This document shows, piece by piece, positions 4,001-54,517 of a stretch of 64,000 nucleotides of DNA (position 1 is the stretch's first letter; the number at the start of each line of letters is the position of its first letter). Made by a program: the position numbers and the translations under genes. The notes beneath the pieces were generated by a model. The model worked only from the letters and a program-made list of their open reading frames with translations. It was not told where the DNA came from and did no database searches. The DNA comes from Stichopus chloronotus (Eukaryota; Echinodermata; Holothuroidea; Aspidochirotida; Stichopodidae). The DNA is taken from the NCBI GenBank assembly GCA_021234535.1, contig CM037849.1, positions 11,265,526 to 11,329,525 on the forward strand, read 5' to 3'.

Positions 4001-6260
4001 CTATGTCACTTAAATGCAACACACAAGATTGATATATGAGTGCATACTTTCAAGTTATAAACCTGTACAAAGAGAACAGTGAACTAACACTATGTTGACG
4101 GAATTATCTCACAAGTCCACACAATAGAACAGAAAGGGATTAAAATCAGAGCAATACAAGTCGTGCACCTATAGAGGCTAACTTTACCTAATTTGGAAAA
4201 AATCAATTTAAAAGTAATGTCCAAAAGTGAGAAATATTGACCCAATTATTGAAAACACACAATAGGTGTTTGAAAACAGTGCTATTCACAGGAGCTAAAC
4301 AAGTGATATGGTATATTACATAATACATACTGTACACTAGTTTGTAATAACTAACACTTCAACTTCCAGAGTAAACTAATACAGTTAGGGACTGTCAATG
4401 CCAATAACGTGATTGTCAAAATGTGTGCAATGCTGGACACCAGAACGGACAAAATTCAGGTAAAATTTAGGCAATCAATGAAACATTTAGTAAACAATTG
4501 CGGGCATACTTAACACAAAGCATGATAAGTCTACATGCAACACACACAGAGTTTAAACTGTAAATCCATGCAGTAAGGAACACATTCATGTACATGAAAA
4601 GTAAGTACAGTACTGCAACATTTGCTCTTTAAAGACAGCAAAATGCGAAAACTACCCCAGACTATATACATGAGAGTAATAAGCTTTAAATGTGTAGCCA
4701 GATCTTAAGTACTTCTGAAGAATTTTTATATTAAAAAGAATAAACTGTACACCCTTAATGCTATGCAAATCAGTATTTCATTCCACATCACCTGGAATCA
4801 GATTTAGAACCATTTATAAAATGAATCTGGTTTTGTTAAGCCTGCTGTGATTGAAATGTGAATAAGGGTGAATTAAACACTCAGGGTCACTCCATGATCC
4901 CATTCACTGTGAAATCCGAACCAACCATGCATGCTATAGAAGGTAATCTAATAAATTTGTTTTTCGTTAAGACTTTGACAAATCTGACAACTCATAGACC
5001 TGGAATCCTTTGTTTTTTATGAATCATTGTTCCAAAATAACCATCTGAGACCTTGCTAGGGAGAGGCAGAGTGCAATATTTGTTCAACAGCAGACTGTGA
5101 CTTCCTTGACTGGTTTGTAAACAGGAAGTGCCTTAATACTAAACTGAATGTCAACAGAATTAAGTACACATTACACAAAGGCTTGAAACAAAAATTTAGA
5201 TCTCACTGTGCTTCACTAAATCACACACATTGCATTTTATTAAATTAGGCCACATCTCCCCACTGTCAGTCAGAACCCATTAAATCTTACAGGCCTGTGG
5301 TAGGATGCCCTGGGAATCACCAAATAAAACAGAGTGCAAGAGATCTACATACACCAGATGGCCACACCTACCACACAGGGATGTGTTCACCACACAGTGT
5401 TCATTTCGTGTTCACAGATGCAGTGACTGGCTGCTCTCCATCATGACCAACAAACATCAGTTTGCTGTCTAGACTGACACAAAATGCACCCATGCTGGGA
5501 GCTTGCGACCTCTATGAATGCAGAGCACATGTGAACAGAAGGAAATGGTGGTTACCGTATCTAGGAGAAAACAACTGGCATGCTGTGAAGGGAATAATTT
5601 GCTGCCTACATATGACAATACAATAAAACAGGACCTGCTCCATGGCAGCTGAAACAAAACACAGCAAGTTATGGAGTGAGAACTGCCGTCAAATTTGTCT
5701 GATTTTTGTGGATTGTCGTGTAATGCACTGTAATGAATACACAGAAACTCCATCGGCTGGCAATGGTGTCGATGATACCCGTCTGCCCTCGCGAGGGATT
5801 CTCGTTGGCAACCAAACCACATCGATCATTTGGTTGCTACAATGTCAATTTACACGTCATGCCACGTAAAACATCACAGAAACATTTTATCAAACCAATG
5901 AGCACAAACTTACTAGATACTGAACAGAAATCACATCAAACAGTGAGGAAAGAACTTGCATTTCAGTAATGATTTGTGTGTTTTTATCTTCACTTGCAAG
6001 CAGGTTTCCTCCACCATTTTCCTCTCAGGGCAGAGATTCAGCTGTTGGACTGGCTACAGATTCATCTGAACTGATTCCAACAAGTGAAATGACTGATGTT
6101 CTTCTCATCCAACACATATTGCAAGTAACGACTTGCGCAAATATTTCCCTGTGCATTCCACAGTCAATCAAATGACAACAAACTGAGAGGAAAACTCACA
6201 ACCAAACACTGCCAGTAAATAACAAACTGTTGCAGATATCAGATAATCTGAAGAACTTAC
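1023..6260. other. Non-coding stretch, presumed protein 4.1 intron 4
   Basis: Lies immediately downstream of exon 4 on the coding strand. Only short ORFs without splice or domain support were seen. No further FERM exon could be found. A few pyrimidine-rich tracts, otherwise unremarkable. Confidence 0.5.
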
Positions 6261-17128: not shown

Positions 17129-17488
17129 CTTATGTAGCTTGTTTTATGTAGCTTGTTTTATGTAGCAAGTTTTATGTAGTTTGTCTTACGTAGCTTCTTT
17201 TATGTAGCTTGTTTTAGGTAGCTTTGTTTTATTAGCTATGTTTTATGTACCTTGTTTTATGCAGCTTGTTTTATGTAGCAAGTTTTATGTAGTTTGTCTT
17301 ACGTAGCTTCTTTTATGTAGCTTGTTTTAGGTAGCTTTGCCTTATGTAGCTATGTTTTATGTAGCTTGTTTTAGGTAGCTTTGTCTTATGTAGCTATGTT
17401 TTATGTACCTTGTTTCATGTAGCTTGTCTAATGTAGCTTGTTCTATGTTGTGTTTGCTTTATGCAGCTCTTGTTTTATGAAGCTTTGT
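17129..17488 (+). repeat. Minisatellite of about 14-bp units (TTTTATGTAGCTTG)
   Basis: About 25 degenerate copies of TTTTATGTAGCTTG. A longer pattern (GCAAGTTTTATGTAGTTTG...) is repeated at 17165 and 17278, a 113-bp higher-order period, so blocks of about eight units were duplicated together. Confidence 0.9.
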
Positions 17489-25574: not shown

Positions 25575-26700
25575 AGTTACAGTAAGTCACCAAAAGTGAC
25601 ACTTGTACCCCATCTTACACCCCTCATGGTATTCAGTCAAAACTAGGTGGGTCAATAGTAATTATACAGTCAGTGGATACTCATGGCATACAAATGACAT
25701 GGATGGAGATTACCGATTGGGGGTGGGGGGTGACAAGGGATATCCAAATGTGTGTGGGTGTGTGCGTGGGTGTGCGAGTGCACTGTGTGTGTATGCAAAC
25801 AAAAGTGTGTCACAATCTCCTCTTAGACAGTGTGGCAGATAACCCTCAAACTTGGTGGGTAGGTGCCCAAGAATGTGGTGATGGTGTTTTCCCCAACCGA
25901 TAACGTCCTAGGTCAAAGGTCAAGGACTGCAGGTCACGAAATGAAAAGCACATTTTTAGCATTATCTCTATGTGTGAATGTCCAAGAGTTATAAAACTAC
26001 CATACAGTATATGAAAAGTAGACGATACAGGATATTTATTTAAAAATTTCGATGATGCCACAAGAGTCAAATCGGCAAAAATGTTCTGGAAAAGAATGTC
26101 GCGATCTTCTCCTGGACAGTACGTTGGATTAACTTTAAACTAGGTGGATACGTAGGTGCCTGGGTATGTGGAACAGGGTCTGCCCAACCGATGACATCAT
26201 AGGTCAAAGATTATGAAAATGAAAACCACAGTTTTAGCATTTATCTGTATGTGTGGATCTCTTAGAGTTATAAAACTACTATATATGGAAAGCAGACGAT
26301 ACCAGACTTTTTTTAGAATGTTGATGATGTCACAAGGTCAAAGGTCACGAGGTTAAAGGTCAAATCGGCATAAATGGAAAAGTGTGTCACAATCTCCTCC
26401 TAGATGGTACAGTATGTCAGAAAAAGTTCAAACTTGGTGGGTAGGTGCCTTGGTATGTTGTATAATGTCGGAAATGTCCGCCCGACAAATGACATCATAG
26501 GTCAAGGTCACAGTAAACTTTAGTGCGTAGTACAGTGTGTTAGGTACAAGGTGTCAAAATGACTTTAACATCTTTGTCTTTCCATGAATGTGACATGGTA
26601 TTTCAACCGATGCAACCATGTTCTGGGCTCATGAGCTTTGGTCTGGTAGCAGTATCATTTTCCATGTAGTACCTCTACTCAGAGTATTTTTACAGTTGCG
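25575..26700 (+). mobile_element. Family B tandem-repeat element, copy 1
   Basis: The left flank (about 25575-25800) and the right flank (about 26500-26700) both match, in inverted orientation, the copy at 33720-34890. Shared landmarks are AAACTAGGTGGGTCA on the left and ATGCAACCATGTTCTGGGCT on the right. The core repeats with a period of about 288 bp, seen from the 'cacaatctcctc' landmark at 25811, 26101 (variant) and 26388. DR1-type sites lie at 25910-25922 (perfect), about 26057, 26203, 26335-26347 (perfect) and 26498. No ORF of note. It has the same design as family A (unique flanks, tandem core), but flank sequences are unrelated by eye. Confidence 0.7.
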
Positions 26701-31400: not shown

Positions 31401-33719
31401 CTGCTCCCTTTTTGGCATGCCACAAGTCAACTAGAATGTATACTGTACATGATAGCGGTCCTGCTGGTATAATACCGTACGTAGATGATAGCAGTCCTGC
31501 TGGTAATATCATTTTGAGAATTGATATTACATTCAAGGAAATACCTCCATTTGACTTTTGGCCATATTAGTGAAGGTTTAAATTACTACAAAGGTAAGTT
31601 CTACAGGACAGGTCACGCCCATTGGACTAAGACAATTGAAATTCTATGGCCCTTTCCAAAGCCAAACTTGTTTGGACAAACGAGGCCACTAGGTTTGTAA
31701 GATGGAGGACTAATCTGGCTTTAAACCAAACTATCTGCGAGCCAAATAAGCTGGATTTAGTAAGAGCTTTACATACTGTGCATTGTGCAGCACATTATTC
31801 ATGTACTTTCGATCGAGACAATCTCGTGTGAGGTTTGCAAGAGAGGAGAGAGTTCCCAAATTGCTGTTTGTCATCTATGCCATGACATTGCAACATTCCA
31901 TTTGTAGTGTCTAAGAATCCATCTCGATCTTTTTGATTTTATTCAGAGTCTTCATACGGTATGTGCCGTCGAATTGTCCCAATATCAAATTTAATGAAGT
32001 TGGTAATTGGAAACAGATATTTTGTGTTTGACTCCAAAAGTCAGTTTCCATGTTCCATTTTGGTGTATCATATCACCCAACTATTTTCAATTAACTCCCG
32101 ACCAAACTCTTCAACTACTTCGGATCTGGTCGACTGCTGTTCAAACATGCTAAATCAGTATGTGGATGGACTCGCCTGCAAAATGTTGGGCATTTGACAT
32201 CAGTAGGGAAGTTTCTATGGTAAATGTAATGAAATTTTTCAAGGACTTGAATATCACTCCATATTTCACACTATGGATAATATAATTTTGGAAAGTATGA
32301 AAGAGCTTAGGATCAACCATATAGTATGTCTAAATAAGTAATGTGATGTAGAGTTGTTGTATTGTTGTGACTGTTGTAATCAGTCTCTACAATGAGATAA
32401 AGGTACAGTAATTTCGGACTCCTACCCATCAATATTAGATGTAAAAATGTAAGACCTATCGTTAACATTGGTGTTTATCTCATAGTCGGTGTGGAGAGGT
32501 CTCACTGATGCAATGCATACACTTGTTTTCTCATCAGACTGTTTTTATCACTATCTTCTTTTGATATTTCTAAAAAAAATTTTTGATCCATAAGATGACA
32601 GATCAGATCCAATACTGACATAGAGAAGTGTTGCTGTTCACTTGAACATGGTAGGAATTTTGGAAAGGGGTAGTAAGCACCTGGTCGAGTCCTCACTTGT
32701 AACTTACTGATCAATGCAGGTATTCACAAGTGACTACCCCCTGCTCATACTTATACAAAGAGAAGCTCTAAAACCCTAACGAGGAAGAGCTGGAGAACAG
32801 AGGGCGCAGTGCAAGAACAAATTATTCAAAAGGGGTTTTAGAGATTATCTGACTATGCATAAGTATGAGAGCAGTGTAAGTACATGTTTATGATGTGAAT
32901 ATCTGTGTCACTAGGGCAAACGCTAATATTAGGCAGTTTTCGCAAACACGACGTGGACATAGAATCCAGTGTGCAAAATCAGACAGTCACCACACAATTA
33001 CTATCCGTTGTGACGAAAGCTACAACCGTTCTCTGACAACCTTACGTTCGTTCTAGACTGGGTGCTCGAAGCCAGTAACCATATATGCCATTGCAGTGCA
33101 TTCCGTTCACAAAATGCAAAACCATTCAAAAGGAACGACATGTGCCTGAGTACACGTACTGTACCTTCATGGCTGATAGCTTCCGCATACTCTTGGTGCT
33201 TCCATCGTGTTTGCGAAAGCAGCGTACTCTTATAAACATGCAGTACATGGCAGGCATCTCAGTACAGTACATCTCACAAGAAAAAACAAGTATGCAATCC
33301 ACAGAGACTTTGCAAATCCCATCCCCATCGTTTTGTATGGTAATTCAATAATTAATTATCCATCATTTCAATATACTTCCACAGTGCGCTTAGTTGTACA
33401 TTTCATTAGGATTAAAATTGCTCATTGTGGATAGAAGCACTGAACATTCACGTTACTTAGTAGTCTAGTATTGCAGTCACCATATGCATCAAACAGAACA
33501 AATACATGCACGCACAAATGTTCACATGCGCATAGAAATTGAGTGCGCATCAACAGTATTTCTCAAATCCGGATGTGCCATCACCATGGATGTTTTGTGA
33601 TACCATGAAAAGAGAGTTGTGTGTGGTTCCATCTTCTCTTCAAGATGCATACACATCTCAAATTGTTGTGCAATTGAGTACAATGTAGTAACCATATACT
33701 GTACATATAGTAGAAGTTA

Positions 33720-34890
33720 TAAAAATATACTGAGTGAAAGTACTACCATTCCATGGGAAACAACATTGCTACCAGACATGATCACTCAGCCCAGAACATG
33801 GTTGCATCTATAGGTTGAAATATTGCATCACCTTCAAGGACCGGCAAAGATGTAAAGTTCTGTTGACAACATGTGCTACCAACACCTAACGCACTGTATT
33901 ATGCGCTAAAATAAATGTAACCTTTGACCTTGACCTATGACATCAGTAAATTCTGTGAATTTTTATACAAAAAGTTCAATTTCTCTTTTTCCTTTCCCTG
34001 ATTTTCCACAATTGCATCTACCCACCAATTTGTATTTCATCCAACATAAATACTTAACGAGGAGATTGTGACACACTTTTTCAGAGCCTTTTTGCCAATT
34101 AGACCTTTTGATTTAATGACCTTTGACCTTGCGACATCATCAGCATTTCAAAAAAGTTCATGTACTATCTACATTATGTATGAGGTAGTTTCTTAACTCT
34201 AGGACATTCAAACATAGAGACCATGATAAAACTATTTTTTTTGTTTTTAAGACCTAGAAAGCTTGACCTTTGACATCATAGAACACTATACTGTACCTCA
34301 TACAAAGTCACCTACCCACCAAGTTTGAAGTTCATCCAACTAATCTAAGGAGGAGATCATGACACAATTGTTCAGAGCATTTTTGCCAATTCACATCATG
34401 ACCTTTGTCATAAATGTTTTAAAATCTTCTTACACTATTTTCTTTACGCACATGGTGCTTTCATAACTTTAGGACATTCACACAAACAGACAATGCTAAA
34501 AATGTGTGAATTGTTGGAAATGTGAATGTGTGAATTGCTGGAAATGTGAATGTGTGAAATGTTTTCATGACCTGTGACCCTTGACCTACAATCTCATCAG
34601 TACGGCTGACACTACACCCCATATCCGGGCACCTACTCATGAAGTTTGAGGTTCATCCGACTAACAGTATAGGAGAAGGTGACACACTTTTTTCTTGCAC
34701 ACACACTCATGCACACACAGTGGAACATCCCTCCTCACCCCCCTCCCCCCTCAAGGGCAATCAGTAATCTCAATCCATGTTATTTGAATATCATTTACGT
34801 ATATAAAAGGATGACTGACCCACCTAGTTTCAGTTGTATACCACAAGGGGTATATGGTGGGCTACCATTTAAGTGTCATTTTGGCAACTT
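33720..34890 (-). mobile_element. Family B tandem-repeat element, copy 2 (inverted)
   Basis: Read on the minus strand this follows copy 1 from its left flank (near 34890) through the tandem core to the right flank (near 33720). The right flank shares ATGCAACCATGTTCTGGGCT and the following GGTCTGGTAGCA-like block. Core landmarks GAGGAGATTGTGACACACTTTT (34054, plus orientation) and GGAGGAGATCATGACAC (about 34350) are the complements of those in copy 1. A perfect DR1 (TGACCTTTGACCT) lies at 34117-34129, with weaker ones at 34264, 34399 and 34568. Both flanks being shared shows that a defined mobile unit, not only a satellite, was copied. Confidence 0.7.
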
Positions 34891-34899
34891 GAACAGCTG

Positions 34900-39153: not shown

Positions 39154-41117
39154 AACCAGAAAGCCAAAAGGCTTTGTGATTCCTTGCGACATAGTTATAT
39201 TATAACAAATGAATTATCCACATGACAAGTATATGATCAACGACAGTTATTGTTCTTGAAACACCACATTAATAAGCCTTGAACTCAAAATGACCTTTTT
39301 TTTGGTTACCTCAAATTAATGACATTTGACTTCCACCAAAAGCAATAGGGATCACCTACCCAGTAGGGCCAACCTATAACCAGTATCAAGTATGACATCA
39401 GTCAAAACCACCCTTCTGGAGATAATGTGTTCGCAAGGTTTTCACAGTTTGACATCGGGTGACCTCAAACTTTTCACCTCCACCAAAAACACAAGGAGTC
39501 TTCAACTCAGTATATACAATCCACACATCAAGTATGACATCAGTCAAGATTAGAATTCCTGGAAATATTGTGTTTACACATTTTTACAGTTTGACCTCGC
39601 GTGACGTCAATTGACCTTTAACCTCGACCAAAAACAATAGGGATCTTCTGCTCATTATTACCAACCCACACATCAAGTATTACATCAGTCATGGTTACCC
39701 TTCTGGAGATATTGTGTTAACAAGGTTTTTCCAGTTTGACCTGTGGTGACCTCAAATGGCCTTTGGCATCCACCAAAATCATCCTGGGATCCTGAGTTAT
39801 CCTACCGTCACCCTCTTCCTACAACTGCCATCAAAATTGCTGCAGCCACCTACTTTTACTGGTTGTTATTGCTTCAACATATCTGTTTAATACATTGTTC
39901 AGTTCAGTGACTAACAGGTACCAACATGATTCATTTGGCAGGCAAGGCACCACAATACATTGTAATGAATATGCAGTCACCCACTGTAGATTGACCAATA
40001 TTTGCAGTCTCACACAAGATTCTTCAAAGGATGAATTCATGGATTTAGTGATAGTTTGTGATGTATCCCCATTGTTTTGTTTTTTTGTTATCCCAACAAA
40101 GTTTTTTTTACCCAAAGGCAAATTTTATTGGGATAAAAAAAGACACTATTTTTCTGGCATTTTCCTGTTCTTGCTGTGCAAATTACTATTTTTTTCCTGG
40201 TAAGTGGGGAGATGTTCCTTCTGTACTTCACACGTGACAAGGATAAAAGACACCGTAATGCCTACCTCTTTTAATACAAAACTTTTAAGGGAAATGTTTT
40301 TTTTTTGTTTATCCCATCTTACTATACGTGTTCAGAGTTTTCCTCTAGTGACCTCAAATTAACTTTGACCGACCTGGAAAACAATAGGATTCATCTAGTC
40401 ACAATGGACTACCTACATATCAACTTTGAAATTACAGCAACATTCCCTCATTGAGATACTGTGTTTACAATGTTTTCAAACTAAGACCTTTACTGACCTC
40501 ATATGACCGCTGACCTCCCCAAAACTTTATGGAGCTCAACTACTCATCAAGAGCGACCAATGATTAAAGTTTGAAGTTCTGGCCACATTCAGTTGCTGAG
40601 ATATTTTCTTTAACAAGTTTTCAGGCTTTTCCCTTTTGTGACCTCAAATGAACTTTGACCTATTTCAATAAGAATAAGGATCATCTACTCACAACCTACA
40701 CACACACCAACTTTAAAGTAATTTTCCATCATTTGGACACATTGTTTTACAAGGTTCTCAAACTATGAACTCTACTGACCTAATTTGACCTTTGGACTAC
40801 CCACAAACTGGACAGAGGTCAACTACTTATGAGGGGGTACCAATGGTTTGAGTTACAAGTTCAAGCAACATTCAGTGGCTAATATATTTTCCTTAGGTTT
40901 TCAGACTTTTCCCTCTGATGACCTCAAATGACCTTTGACCTACTAGGATCAGAGTAGAGATCATCTACAGACAATGGACTACATTCATACCCACTTTGAA
41001 GTTCAAGCACCTTTCTGTTCTCAAGATATCATGTTTACGACCCAAGGTATCACATACACACACATATGCCATCACCAACGCCTAGATTCCTTGTCTGCCT
41101 TCAGCAAGGAATCAATG
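39154..41117 (+). mobile_element. Family A tandem-repeat element, copy 1 (older, interrupted)
   Basis: The left end (AACCAGAAAGCC) and about 170 bp beyond it match family A copy 2 at 52524. A hairpin AAGCC-AAAA-GGCTT lies at 39161-39174, followed by TGATTCCTTGCG at 39177-39188. The core holds degenerate repeats spaced about 145 bp with sites like TGACCTCAAATGACCTTTGACC (clearest at 40919-40942; the others carry changes). The right end at 41085-41113 is the stem-loop GATTCCTT...AAGGAATC, as in copy 2. About 540 bp between roughly 39790 and 40330 lack repeat units and look like a later insertion or unrelated filler. No protein is encoded, so the element is non-autonomous. Divergence from copy 2 says it is the older insertion. 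Confidence 0.75.
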
Positions 41118-46478: not shown

Positions 46479-48345
46479 TTAATTGCTAACAATGTTTCAG
46501 AGTATTCATCTTTTCTTATTAGGAAAATAGCTCTTATTTCGATTTTGTGGCACAAACCTCTCACCACTCTATTGGTGCTGTAATCCTTTTAGGGATAGCA
46601 TATATATTTTCGGATCTCACGCAAAAAAAAAAAGAAAAAGCTCTGCGTAGTATCTTTCTATTTGCACCTATACAGCGTATCCTCTTACATTCAATGCTTT
46701 GAGCGAGTCATTGTGAAGTATACTCCGCGCTAGACTTGAGAAGTAGGTATTACCCCAGGCCCATATATATCCAGGTGAAATTGTCGGGCGGGGGGGGGGG
46801 GGGGGGAGTGGAATGGGTCCACCGGCACCGGTCCCTCATGCATGTTAGTTTGTATTTTGCCATATTTACATCTGGGGGTTAATGCCCATTAAGCAGGAAA
46901 GCGGGTGAATCTAACCACGAATTTTGAAACAATGAGGCACTCTTAGCCTGTATGCAATTTGGAGCCACTGAAATTTTGCTGACGTAATTTCAGCAAATTC
47001 AGCTTAATTTCAGTTGTTAAATATATGAGACCCAGGTCTGAGATATTCTTTAGTGTGTAGCAAACGTGCATAAGGACTGATTTACCAGCAGTTGGGTTGC
47101 TTACAGTATGTTTTCCATGTAGAGCACAATCCCAAGGGGTTGGGACCGCCATCCAGAGTCGTTTTAGTAACTCAAGGGACTGTAAACTGTGGGGAGGGGG
47201 AGGGGGAGGCAAAAGGGCATATGAAAAACACATCCGCAAACACAGGCACACACATATTAACCAGAAGCTGTAGAGAAAACAAATTAGTTTTCACAAGAGT
47301 TTTTTAATCATATTTTCAAGTTTTCAATCATAAGGACGGGAGGGTGAGGGTATGACAAGAAACCAGCGAACCCCCCGAAGGGATATGAAATTTCATCAAA
47401 GTCGCGCAATGTTTAAATCTTTCATTAGTACATTTATACACATATGCGTGATTTGACGTGTAACTATTAAAATAGATGGAACAACAACCACCTCGCTCAA
47501 TAATTGTTAAACCAATCGGACGATAGTTATTTTGATTCGTATTTCATTAATTACCCGGTGTCATTCTGAGACAGGGGGCGCTGAGCTGACAAAGGCTGTA
47601 AGTCACTGCTGTGAAGCTACATATTACTTACATATGTACTCCCTGTACCTGTACCGTAGGTATAAAGTAATTGAACAATTACCACCCAAATGAGGTGAAG
47701 TGATCGAGACTGGTAGTGTGCGTGAAGGGGGGGGGGGGGGGTTCCGAAAAGTGGGGGATAAAATGAGATACAAATAAAGGGAAACTACAGAGGGGGAAGG
47801 TAGAACACGCAGTGCGTGATGTGGTGAATACATGATTACAGAGGGCGCAAAAAGTATCGTGGGTCTTCTTGAAAGGCAAATAAGATTTGCTAAAGTACTG
47901 TACCAACTTTCCAATTTTAGATATTAAGCAACCCCCCACCTACAGAAAATTCCAATCAGTCTCCGATGATTACAAAACCCCTCTGAAAAGTGGAGGGGAC
48001 TAGAACGCCCATTCTCCCATGTGGCGCCGCCAGTGGGGGCGGGGGAGTTTATGCTTGAGCATTACGGTTTAAAAGATCTATATTTGATTTACAGGCCAGT
48101 TGGGTATCAGATGTAAAAGGTGCTATTGCTGAATAACGGTTGAGAGAGTAAATATTTGAAGATTTTTTGCTTTTTTTTTTTTGGGGGGGGGGGTATACAG
48201 CTGCCACTTTAAAGAACCTCCTCCCTGCAATCTCTTCCCTGTATCCATTGGGTTGTGTGTTTAGGCATCTATACTATCTGTGGCATTTTAGAATGGATTA
48301 TAATATTCTTACCAAGAAAGATGTGCAGTTTGCAACCAGATATTT

Positions 48346-48931: not shown

Positions 48932-50899
48932 CTCCAACAAAAGAAAAGGTCTCAAGCGGTCTTTGGATTTGAAACAACACATTTATTTTGTCACGTGATA
49001 GTTGTGGTTTTAGGTAGTTCCAAAACAACATGATCATTGCAAACAGAGTGTTGAACGTAAATTCTACACCCATTCTATAAAAAAAAAAATATGTAAAAGT
49101 ACAACACTTAAACAAGCCAGTCTACCTGCGACTTAAGAATGGGATGTGTAATTTCAGTCTTAGAGTTAGGGGTAACTACGGTCTCAAAAGACTTGCTAGA
49201 ACAATATATGAGACTGAAAATCACAGAGAGAGAGAGAGAGGAAAAAAAACTAATGTGACCAGTACAGAGGCTAACCAAAACTCCCCACCCTAACACCCAT
49301 CCAAAGCCACTTTACATAGACCTATAAAACATGTACCATGAATAGTCAGTACACCTGGGTTGAAAAACTGCCGTTGAAATTAAATCATAGCAAATCCTTC
49401 CTGCTTGGGGAGCAACAAAGCCTCAACTAAGAATTCTGTGTTACAATTGCAAAGTTACTCAAACTTTGGAAAAAACTGCTATAAATATAAGTGCAAGCAG
49501 ATTTGAATACTCACTATAGCGACACAATAGCGACAAAACTAAAGCGACAAAACATTGTTTTGTAATGATCTTCAGCCAATAAGCCTGTAGAGTGGGCTTT
49601 AAACCACATTTTTAAAATGAAATTGATACTGCATAGGACACCCAAAATTGCAGGGCCTGAAGCATATGCTACTATAGGAATCCCTTGCAAACTGCACACA
49701 CTCCTTTGTATGGAGGAGCAGCCATTATAGAGTTGACCTTTTAAATTACATTAACCCACTGAAAAAAAGTGACATTAGGTTTGCACTATCACTAGACTCT
49801 AACATCAAGTACACAAATACATTTGTTTAATGTTCACTTCCAGGAGGTAATTAACTGGGAACAGTGATAAACACATTTCTCTAAGGGACTATTTTTACAT
49901 ACCATCATTCACTTGGTAGCCTTCAACAAACATTCAAGCAAACTGAAGGTGAAACGGATTTTGAACTAGAAGCTTTTTGATCTACAAGCCTTTCAAGGTA
50001 AGGATGTAAAGGGGGGGGGGGGGGTGGGGGAATGGTATCACTCTACGCTTGCAACCCTTTCAACCCACAAGATCTACATGGCACTACATATGGTCGTTTT
50101 GAAAGTGAAGGCCAGGTTGTCATCTAACACATGAGTGGTAGAGCAACGTATTCACAAGGGATCATGAAAAGAGAACGGATTAAATGTGCAGGGCAACAGC
50201 TGGAGGAGATTTAGTTTAGTTGTGGTGCACACTGTCAATTGCATGATTGCAGACATTGGTGTGTCAATCACAACATTTAAAACATGAAAACATATTTACA
50301 ATTCACAAAGTACGAGTAACATCTGTGACATCCCAATACATCCATACACTACAACGAAAAAGAAATCACTTTGAAACAAGCAAGTTGAAATTCAAATGCA
50401 AGCCACACCCTGTGATAGGTGAGTGTCAGATACATCCCATTTTGGAGAGCAGCAAATACTCATGGCAAGGAAAGTATCGAAGGACAACTGCTCCCTCCTC
50501 CAAACAATTTTGATCATAAAAGCTTGCAGGAACTTTTCATAATCCTGTATTTCTTTTCAAAGTTTTTCCCCACTGTTTCATGGTTCTCAAAGGGACCACA
50601 CAGTACTTGGCTATGTTACATACATGTGAAACTCTGAAATACCGACGTGATATTGGACAGCATTACCACTGCTAGGAATGTGTCTGATGTGGTCACAATG
50701 CTAACTCATATTACACAAATTACATGAACTTGTTTAAGCATCCTTGGGAGAGAATCTTTGCTCTGGCATTGATTAACAATCCAAGTGTGCAGTTTGAACA
50801 ATAGCAAGTCTTTTGTATTGGTTACTATGGATACCTTCAAACTAGTGACTCATTTTGATGAAAAAAAAAACTTTAAAAGCATAGCACAAAAAAATTCTT

Positions 50900-51827: not shown

Positions 51828-51941
51828 CTACTGATCTGCTATGCTGACTGCTGCTGTATCCGCTGCAGCTCCCGACAGAAATACTTGCTGGGCCTGTCCT
51901 CCCTGAGATTGTAATGGAAGCTGCTGAATCTGGAACACCTG
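51828..51941 (-). CDS. NFYC: NF-Y subunit C, last coding exon with stop
   Basis: Thirty-seven codons and a TAG stop at 51830-51828. The acceptor is AATATTTCAG|CAGGTG, phase 0. The peptide begins QVFQIQQLPLQSQGG and ends AAVSIADQ. It corresponds to the NF-YC C-terminus, where vertebrates have QLYQIQQVTMPAGQ followed by a short Ala/Ser/Asp-containing tail of similar length. No donor follows before the stop, so this is the terminal coding exon. The intron to the previous exon is 2,453 bp and is mostly occupied by a tandem-repeat mobile element (52524-54320). The 3' UTR should lie to the left of 51828; I could not fix its end. Confidence 0.6.
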   Translation of the reverse strand, partial: QVFQIQQLPLQSQGGQAQQVFLSGAAADTAAVSIADQ

Positions 51942-52523
51942 CTGAAATATTTTTGGCAAAACAAACAGTACAAATATCAGACTTATGATTCTCTGTGATA
52001 AATTCACTGTGAACACAAATAAACAGTGACTCAAATGACCCTGACCCCATTTTCAGATTCCAGTTTATTCTGTTTGACCCACTGCACCCTATGCTACCCT
52101 TGTGCCCCTCCCCTTCTTCTGCCTTCCCAGGCTTTCACCCCTCCCTTTCCTGTAAGGTTTGCCAGTATACACCAAACCAAAGCACTCCAGCTGTAAGAAT
52201 TGATGTAATTCACTGACACACCAGTCTATGAAGCAACAGACCAAACCACATTGTATGTAATACAATTTACTTTGAGACCAAAATAAACTATCTACAGACT
52301 AACTTGATGTAGTGATGATAGAAGCTATTCTAAATGAAGAGTCAAGAAACCACATCACTGTGTGACAGAAGACCAGTTGCTATACAGACCAAGCTGGGCT
52401 AACAAAAGGCCAAGTCAGTATGTGGCATACCAGAAACCCATCTAGTTATAGACTACTGAAAACCAATTATGCTACAGATCAAACAACCCCAAAAAAAAAA
52501 AAAAAGAGAAGAAAAACACAAAG

Positions 52524-54320
52524 AACCAGAAAGCCGAAAGGCTTTGTGATTCCTTGCCACATGGTTATATTATAACAAGCATGAATTATTCACATGACAA
52601 GTATGAGATCAACTGCACTTACTGGTCTTGAAACACCACATTAATAAGCCTTTAATCCAAATAACCTTTATTTTGGTGACCTCAAATGACATTTGACATC
52701 CACTAAAAGCAATAGGGATCACCTACCCAGCATGGGGAACCTACGCATCAAGTATGACATCAGTCAACATTACTCTTCTGGAGATAATGTGCTAGAAAAT
52801 TTTCACCCCGGGGGACCTCAAACGACCTTTGACCTCCACAAAAACAATAGGAGTCATCTACTCAATATGACTTACCCACACACCAAGTATGACATCAGTC
52901 ACACTTACCCTTCTAGAGATACTGTGTTTACAATGTGTTTACAGTTTGACTCAGGGTGACCTCAAGTGACCTTTATCTCCACCAAAAACAATAGGGATCA
53001 TCTACTCAATATGACCAACAAACACACCAAGTATGGCATCAGTCGCAGTTACCGTTCTTGAGATATCATGTTTACAAGGTTTTCACATTTTGACCTCTGG
53101 TGACCTTAAATGACCTTTGACCTCCACCAAAAGCAATAGGGATCATCTACGTAACATGACCAACCCACACAGTAAGTATGACATCAGTCACAGTTACTCT
53201 TCAGCAGATACTGTGTTTACAAGGTTTTTCCAGTTTGACCTCCATTGACCTCAAATGACCTTTGACCGCCACCAAAAACAATAGGGATCATCTACTCAAC
53301 ATGTCTAACCCACACACCAGGTATAATATCAGACACAGTTACCGTTCTTGAGATATCATGTTTACAAGGTTTTCACATTTTGACCTCTGGTGACCTCAAA
53401 TGACCTTTGACCTCCACCAAAAGCAATAGGGATCATCTACTCAATATGATCAACCCACACAGTAAGTATGACATCAGTCACAGTTACCCTTCTGGAGATA
53501 TTGTGTTTACAAGGTTTTTCCAGTTTGACCCCCGTCGACCTCAAATGACCTTTGACCGCCACCAAAAACAATAGGGATCATCTACTCAATATGACTAACC
53601 CACACACTAGGTATGACATCAGACACAGTTACAGTTCTTGAGATATCGTGTTTGCAAGGTTTTCACATTTTGACCTGTGGTGACCTCAAATGACCTTTGA
53701 CCTCCACTAAAAACAATAGGGATCATCTACTCAATATGACCAACTCACACAACAAGTATGACATCAGTCACAGTTACCGTTCTTGAGATATCCTGTTTAT
53801 AAGGTTTTCATATTTTGACCTCTGGTGACCTCAAATGACCTTTGACCTCCACCAAAAGCAATAGGCATCATCTACTTCATATGACCAACCCACACAGTAA
53901 GTATGACATCAGTCACAGTTACCCTTCTGGAGATATTACGTCTACAAGGTCTTTCCAGTTTGACCTCCGTTGACCTCAAATGACCTTTGACCGCCACTAA
54001 AAACAATAGGGATCATCTATTCAATATGACTAACCCACACACTAGGTATGACATCAGACACAGTTACCGTTCTTGAGATATCGTGTTTACAAGGTTTTCA
54101 CATTTTGACCTCTGGTGACCCCAAATGACCTTTGACCTCCACCAAAAACAATAGGGATCATCTACTCAATATGACCAACCCACACACCAAGTATGACGTC
54201 AGTCATGGTTACCCTTCTTGAGATATCGTGTTTACAAGAAGTGTCACATACACACACACACCCATACACACACGACATCACCATCGCATAGATTCCTTCT
54301 GCCTTCGGCAAGGAATCAAT
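52524..54320 (+). mobile_element. Family A tandem-repeat element, copy 2, in the last NF-YC intron
   Basis: The left flank starts AACCAGAAAGCC with a perfect hairpin AAGCC-GAAA-GGCTT (52531-52544) and TGATTCCTTGCC (52547-52558). The core is a 145-bp tandem array. The right flank has a CA-rich stretch and a stem-loop GATTCCTT...AAGGAATC (54291-54317). GGCAAGGAATCA at 54307-54318 is the exact reverse complement of the left 12-mer, so the two ends form inverted subterminal repeats. Tandem core, subterminal inverted repeats and a 3' stem-loop are the known layout of Helentron-associated (HINE) and 'pearl/CvA/Tsp' elements. No coding capacity. It lies wholly within an intron, on the opposite strand to NF-YC. 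Confidence 0.8.
52685..54240 (+). repeat. 145-bp tandem array with one DR1 site per unit
   Basis: The sequence TGACCTTTGACC recurs at 53111, 53256, 53401, 53546, 53691, 53836, 53981 and 54126, each exactly 145 bp after the last. Three more diverged units lie to the left (about 52687, 52823, 52967). Each unit also carries TGACATCAGTCA-like and 'caatagggatcatcta' landmarks. Two subtypes alternate: A (CCGTTCTTGAGATATC and GACCTCCACC) and B (CTTCTGGAGATATT and GACCGCCACC), in the order A B A B A A B A. The motif is the exact complement of AGGTCAAAGGTCA, the DR1 response element bound by HNF4, RXR and COUP-type nuclear receptors. Confidence 0.9.
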
Positions 54321-54394: not shown

Positions 54395-54517
54395 CTGTTG
54401 CCCTGTCAACTGAGCCACCAGGTCTTGAGTGTTGATCTGCTGTTGTCCGTTGGCCTGCTGTAGGGTCACCCCTTGGGGCCTCACAATTTGTATGCTACCT
54501 TGCTGGTTCATCTGAAG
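54395..54517 (-). CDS. NFYC: NF-Y subunit C, penultimate coding exon (Gln-rich activation domain)
   Basis: Forty-one codons, phase 0 to phase 0. The acceptor is CTTGTTCAG|CTTCAG and the donor CAACAG|GTGAGA. The peptide is glutamine-rich and hydrophobic (LQMNQQGSIQIVRPQG, then INTQDLVAQLTGQQ), the composition of the NF-Y C-terminal activation region. Spliced to the next exon it gives LTGQQ|QVFQIQQ, closely parallel to FTDGQQLYQIQQ near the C-terminus of vertebrate NF-YC. NF-YC pairs with NF-YB through a histone fold and, with NF-YA, binds CCAAT boxes. The histone-fold exons are not visible between 54518 and 64000, so they are presumably beyond the right edge. Other Gln-rich factors (NF-YA, Sp, CREB, POU2F) were considered; the tail match favours NF-YC. 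Confidence 0.6.

Follow-up and report, generated by a model that had tools for sequence, protein, structure and literature searches.

The closest described systems are the HINE of the oyster Crassostrea gigas (Cg_HINE) and the Pearl elements of bivalves, described as having subterminal inverted repeats 11-12 bp long, a 3' palindrome and, on the 5' side, an inverted repeat, features that recur in the element reported here (PMC7492417). The same account lists a microsatellite, central satellite-like repeats (arranged in some cases in two arrays) and insertion at oligo-T targets without duplication, again as found here, and gives an average of 140-180 bp for the central repeats of oyster HINEs (PMC7492417). 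A DINE-1-like architecture, common to the present element and DINE-1, has also been cited from the sea urchin Tsp, which is likened here by description only (PMC4067079). Mobile repeats are also documented carriers of nuclear-receptor sites: 108,582 consensus DR2 motifs have been counted in human, 90% of them in Alu (PMC1785376), and HNF4 binding in Alu has been reported (PMC3252374).

The present analysis concerns a window of 64,000 nucleotides from the sea cucumber Stichopus chloronotus, the whole stretch of DNA analysed, in which the 12-bp string TGACCTTTGACC starts at 53111, 53256, 53401, 53546, 53691, 53836, 53981 and 54126, with a step of 145 bp throughout. A DR1 consensus consists of two AGGTCA half-sites with 1-bp spacing, and the receptors of DR1 type are HNF4, RXR and COUP-TF. 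The sequence-only reading, which had listed the string at these positions 145 bp apart, was borne out by exact matching and by the TRF call of an array at 52799-54238 (period 145, 9.9 copies, 84% matches, 0% indels). Its description of eight perfect DR1 sites was too strong: the thirteenth base is T on this strand at 53111, 53401, 53691, 53836 and 54126, giving the exact 13-bp consensus in five of the eight, and G at 53256, 53546 and 53981, which spoils one half-site in the other three. Across the whole window, 12 exact copies of TGACCTTTGACC were counted against 0.02 expected from dinucleotide-preserving shuffles. The array lies inside an element, here called A, with the following parts.

52524..54319, minus strand: HINE-like non-autonomous element A, with ends common to 38 delimited genomic copies
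54307..54318, minus strand: 5' subterminal inverted repeat TGATTCCTTGCC (inverted pair I12), pairing with 54291-54298 as a hairpin (z -4.1)
52547..52558, minus strand: 3' partner in pair I12, a subterminal inverted repeat that reads GGCAAGGAATCA on this strand
52530..52545, minus strand: 3' palindrome AAAGCC..GGCTTT adjoining the 3' end, seen in the sequence (fold z -2.8)
54244..54274 (approximate limits), no strand: short CA/GT microsatellite separating the array from the 5' end, seen in the sequence, its layout matched in element B
52672..54242, plus strand: central array of 11 units, with 145-bp steps in the core and unit types partly alternating
53111..53122, plus strand: site 1 of 8 (TGACCTTTGACC), an exact match
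53101..53123, plus strand: example of the 23-bp block, with TGACCT half-sites at 0, +10 and +17

By profile search, element A comprises 11 units at 52672-54242 and a partial unit at 52581-52651; the exact string occurs in the 8 core units and is absent from the three left-most ones. Its 5'-to-3' direction would correspond to the minus strand, as judged by comparison with HINEs, for which the same order of parts is described (PMC7492417, PMC4067079). The members of the 12-bp inverted pair TGATTCCTTGCC/GGCAAGGAATCA are 100% complementary and lie within modules common to the 38 elements. The left module AACCAGAAAGCC(G/A)AAAGGCTTTGTGATTCCTTGC and the right module GATTCCTT...GGCAAGGAATCAA bound the arrays of both A and its relative B, with a G/A difference in B. 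Coding capacity is confined to a single overlapping stop-to-stop frame of at least 80 aa, 89 aa long and located inside the repeat units, and a Pfam search of 8 frames gave no match. Two likely minus-strand exons, at about 51829-51943 and 54395-54517, flank the element and would encode a glutamine-rich protein end. Their product presumably resembles the C-terminus of NF-YC, although a tblastn probe for NF-YC returned no convincing match; since these likely exons lie on either side, element A would sit in an intron of an NF-YC-like gene.

Related repeats occur elsewhere in the window.

39154..41115, minus strand: older relative B, with the same two ends as A and arrays at 39301-39781 (left) and 40338-41048 (right, type B2)
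25580..26700, minus strand: copy 1 of repeat family C, with DR1 sites and ends not defined, 66% identical to copy 2 by alignment
33710..34895, plus strand: copy 2 of family C, from similarity, alignment and sites

In element B, the profile search found four units at 39301-39781 and four at 40338-41048, plus partial units, and the exact TGACCTTTGACC persists in one of the eight. The claim that the motif is better kept in this older copy held for the right array, with 5/48 motif positions changed against 153/503 in the rest, and failed for the left array, where the motif is worse kept (11/48 against 66/413). The segment between the arrays (39782-40327) gave no match to element A; it contains an internal inverted repeat at 40078-40145 and could be inserted sequence or the point at which two elements fused. 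The two copies of family C, inverted relative to each other, share a co-linear skeleton (receptor block, CCACCAAGTTTGA, GAGAT) and hold at least three of the window's DR1 sites; the family is possibly a distant relative of the 145-bp unit. Other repeats observed were an array of the 14-bp unit TTATGTAGCTTGTT at 17130-17485, with a higher-order period of 113 bp, and several long poly-G runs within about 3 kb (about 46790-46806, 47727-47741, 48183-48193 and 50011-50024).

The genome searched for copies comprises 267 contigs and 718,950,351 bases. With the array as query, at least 260 matches came from the 40 scored of 2,936 candidates; 39 loci were fetched and 38 elements delimited, with none by the cut-offs in loci L010, L039 and L043 and two each in L035 and L038. 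Delimited elements, which hold 5-18 units, start with AACCAG and end with AATCAA in 36/38 cases each, the remainder being one base off; as copies were sought by their end modules, these shared ends are partly by construction. Construction does not account for the presence of both modules at the two array edges in 36 of the 39 loci, which were found by the array alone. The three bases following the element are AAA in 36/38 and TAA in 2/38, with an A-run of 3-5 (T on the element strand) in 36/38; in the window, the bases after element A are TAAAT and those after element B TGCAA. Flank matches of 5-8 bp, as a target duplication would leave, were found in 0/38 elements, and shorter ones (3 bp in 6/38, 4 bp in 1/38) compare with 5.7 and 1.1 in shifted pairs. 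Copies abut head-to-tail in L035 and L037, which is supportive of rolling-circle transposition without being proof of mechanism, and the L021 element is inserted in the A-tract of another unit of the same family. The Helitron-type Rep profile PF14214 had 43 matches in the genome against 0/14 control genomes. A broken Helitron/Helentron-type Rep frame with a family element inside was observed at L040:1800-2267 and 4086-4500.

Element A carries the marks by which HINEs are recognised, namely subterminal inverted repeats, a 5' inverted repeat, a 3' palindrome, a T-rich target without duplication, a microsatellite, central tandem repeats, no coding capacity and head-to-tail copies. The array is the central repeat region of a non-autonomous Helentron-type (HINE-like) rolling-circle transposon that carries a nuclear-receptor-type block.

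When units are counted from the left in the 37 elements with six or more of them, those in the same position show 96-98% identity between elements, as against 87% for units within one element; counted from the right, where unit numbers differ, the last unit reaches 97% and the five preceding ones 90-94%. Because same-position units of different elements are more alike than units of one element, the array must be copied whole, and the eight sites therefore represent one inheritance. The sites of the first three units are usually damaged (TGACATTTGACGT in 25/37, CGACCTTTGACCT in 34/37, a 1-bp deletion in 30/37). The exact 12-mer is present in 274/429 units, and in 266/313 from the fourth unit onward.

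We infer, with moderate confidence, that this central array of a HINE-type element holds in its block a cis-acting site that helps the source element multiply, a nuclear receptor being the likeliest binder. Source elements would require the block or gain from it; its binder would be a DR1-type host nuclear receptor (HNF4, RXR or COUP-TF) in the germline or early embryo, and binding would open chromatin or drive transcription of the source element. Inserted copies would afterwards decay mostly neutrally.

The first rival to this reading treats the motif as a pure passenger, satellite-like HINE cargo whose apparent conservation would be owed to the chance that a few source elements carried it, an account we consider somewhat unlikely. 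The comparison between lineages speaks against it. In five lineage consensuses, 0/12 motif columns differ, versus 8-56 of the 131 other columns, and the motif is the best-kept 12-bp window between lineages. The B2 consensus, from nine copies picked by similarity to the window, has five units at exactly 145 bp with 5/5 perfect sites, even though the window's own B2 copy is ruined; a search for this subfamily gave at least 61 matches among 7,360 candidates, mostly at 70-81% identity. Variants shared by two or more of the nine copies affect the motif at 8/511 positions and the rest at 406/6505 (ratio 0.25), and shared to singleton variant types stand at 4:33 in the motif against 165:432 elsewhere (Fisher p 0.022). 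A further set comprised 121 diverged units outside delimited elements with at least 60 aligned columns, including the arrays of three loci without a delimited element and seven window units. At 70-80% identity (48 units, 16 loci), the motif was changed at 47/503 positions against 1397/5272, and a single one of the 132 windows was lower; motif/rest ratios in the remaining identity classes were 0.38-0.57, with 3, 11 and 4 of 132 windows lower, so that between 1 and 11 windows were better kept, depending on the class.

When 74 older units were clustered with the block left out and the four largest clusters were compared, the consensuses of the two large ones (n = 23 and n = 19) contained the exact 12-mer and those of the small ones (n = 5 each) were one mismatch from it. 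Across the A, D, B2even and B2odd consensuses, 78/143 columns are invariant and no invariant run is longer than the 13-bp DR1 (shuffle P 0.015); among 23-column windows the 23-bp block ranks best, with 21/23 positions invariant (P 0.0026). Once the G-ending young type is included, these become a run of 12 (P 0.020) and 20/23 (P 0.0097). The block TGACCTCAnnTGACCTTTGACC comprises three half-sites, a DR4 overlapping a DR1, and as far as these alignments reach it appears, with moderate strength, to be the best-kept part of the unit among the few, related lineages compared. Full-length young units carry the full DR1 in 203/453 cases and have G as the last base of the site in 117/453. The site need not be perfect, because of these G-ending units, the three of eight such sites in the window and the broken early units.

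Single copies behave differently, and here the passenger account finds its support, as private changes do not avoid the motif. In 395 young units, the motif/rest ratio of private variants was 0.86, 1.28 and 1.55 at thresholds of 1.5, 3 and 5%, and ranged over 0.78-1.62 across core and edge classes; singletons of the nine old B2 copies gave 33/511 against 432/6505, a ratio of 0.97. Genomic units with 10 bp intact on each side numbered 5,748, and less than half kept the 12-bp site (2,678 kept, 3,070 changed). A neighbouring 12-bp control segment was intact in 48 of the first 100 listed among 4,576, or 61 of the first 100 if its commonest variant is counted as a second type. The damaged sites of the first three units are passed on as faithfully as intact ones, and common and rare variant types of the young family showed no motif/rest difference (p 0.39), both as a passenger would have it. 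In 83 mixed older units, variants present at two or more loci gave 0.41; the singleton ratio was 0.86, on counts (4/891 against 49/9333) too small to carry weight.

Within clusters of older units, by contrast, motif decay was lower than expected in the two large ones (21 changes against 45.2, n = 23; 23 against 35.6, n = 19) and close to expectation in the small ones (7 against 8.0 and 7 against 7.6, n = 5 each), amounting to 58 against 96.5 over the four. Sub-lineage structure, separated only for B2, is perhaps responsible; copy-level constraint or a mutation-cold block is also possible. Inserted single copies appear to decay mostly as neutral sequence, with no clear motif constraint.

Three apparent signals were set aside. 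When units were compared by their place in the array, the motif/rest ratio came to 0.43 (p 0.001) where the site was intact and 1.14 where it was broken; the 0.43 was rejected because elements out of register contribute differences of unit type outside the motif and not within it, and counting private changes only removed the effect. Ratios over 453 units (0.34 for all variants, 0.75-0.80 for rare ones) mix both levels. The pooled B2 decay (41 changes against 66.6 expected) looked constrained and splits into the 0.97 of singletons and the 0.25 of shared variants.

The site tends to survive lineage change, although single copies appear to decay freely. The suggestion that the motif is selected, not merely carried, is upheld between lineages and finds no clear constraint in single copies; in substitution rate, private changes are about equal in motif and rest, whereas lineage consensuses differ less in the motif.

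The cis-acting site could alternatively be bound by the transposon's own Rep/helicase in an iteron-like manner and not by a nuclear receptor. Rolling-circle replicons carry direct-repeat iterons, and the consensuses of A, D and B2 place the half-sites at 0, +10 and +17, with constant steps of 10 and 7 bp. Helitron-type Rep sequences are present in the genome, as their 43 matches attest, and the block is about as well kept as the transposon end between A and B2. Nonetheless, oyster HINEs are described as able to pair unrelated central repeats with related ends (PMC7492417); as their repeats vary in this way behind related ends, central repeats would not be generally needed for mobility. The preferred binder is a host receptor because the consensus equals the receptor sequence to the letter. 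Binding by Rep as an explanation in its own right strikes us as quite improbable, and the element's own Rep/helicase is best seen as the main alternative binder, a second choice to the receptor.

The abundance of the sites brings in a further possibility, that some or many copies are kept because they serve the host, either as a sink for receptors or as enhancers to which receptors bind. Exact DR1 13-mers number 35,398 in the genome, one per about 20 kb, against 54 for a reversed control; 2,678 of the genomic sites lie in exact A-type flanks, and of the 213 DR1 13-mers in the 39 loci fetched, which were selected by the array, 210 fall inside units of its profile. Such array repeats of HINE type seem to have spread perfect sites of nuclear-receptor type by the thousand. 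As to transcripts, a list of 20 primer pairs for unigenes with differential expression in the sea cucumber Holothuria leucospilota includes 3 that match the unit (PMC7161275). The best six of 80 primers are those of the three pairs, with 0, 1, 1, 3, 4 and 5 mismatches, the weakest (5/25 mismatched) being close to what a control stretch of the same length gives at best (22%). To judge from these matches, related repeats are probably present in coelomocyte RNA of that species. The matched unigenes are not called repeats in the part of the source consulted, and three assays of its Table 6 may measure repeat transcripts, the primers lying in a repeat family (PMC7161275). With a chance frame of the array as protein query, one 135-aa frame was found, in a 555-bp ENA contig repeating the unit. 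Three scans of viral contigs yielded one stretch, without a profile match and taken as chance, and one scan of genome contigs outside the source genome gave no match.

Retention by the host draws on this number of sites, on the matching primers, on the lower motif decay within two older-unit clusters and on the Alu precedents (PMC1785376, PMC3252374). Private mutations are not depleted in the motif, however, and the site is changed in 3,070 of the 5,748 units with intact flanks, so that we regard such retention as very doubtful. A broader picture, tentative and in our view unlikely to hold in full, would have an echinoderm rolling-circle lineage retain the three-half-site block as a multiplication device acting through a host receptor active in germline or embryo, with much of the roughly 35,000 DR1 sites as a by-product of it and its relatives and occasional copies rewiring receptor targets. 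In this picture selection would act on source elements and not on inserted copies, leaving private changes neutral and lineage changes blocked, as in B2.

Unit spacing within the elements is 145 bp in 255/391 cases, 144 in 70 and 136 in 35, and other nearby DR1 sites lie 113-158 bp apart (22 spacings below 200 bp, counted by hand among the first 100 listed genomic sites). The proposed link between the period and nucleosomal DNA was not supported: selection of 145 bp for nucleosome phasing is extremely improbable, for although this spacing is modal and recurs in the B2 consensus, it is inherited with the array, it is not strict across families, and 140-180 bp is the ordinary length of HINE repeats in oyster (PMC7492417).

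The element is unnamed in the literature searched, in which a DR1 site in such repeats is likewise unreported. If the lineage-level constraint holds, Helentron satellite-like repeats keep motifs that the element may need, a proposition open to testing, and the contrast between private and shared changes offers a simple test of passenger versus working sites in transposons. With one exact DR1 per about 20 kb, studies of HNF4, RXR or COUP-TF binding in this genome must reckon with the repeats.

Set beside Cg_HINE and Pearl as described, the present element belongs to another phylum, is likened by architecture and not by repeat sequence, and adds a receptor-type site with apparent lineage-level constraint, neither of which is mentioned in that account as far as consulted (PMC7492417). 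Like Alu, it is a mobile repeat that spreads consensus or near-consensus receptor sites genome-wide; Alu is a SINE, for which the cited accounts, as far as consulted, mention no tandem unit array, whereas here the carrier is a rolling-circle element (PMC1785376, PMC3252374). Deamination is described as the main origin of the DR2 sites of Alu (PMC1785376); in the present family, by contrast, the larger subfamilies examined have the site in their consensus. The ISX element of Drosophila miranda offers a further parallel, since this transposable element scatters sites for a DNA-binding complex of its host (PMC4384637). For ISX, selection and gene conversion among copies are reported, whereas in the present family private changes do not avoid the site (PMC4384637).
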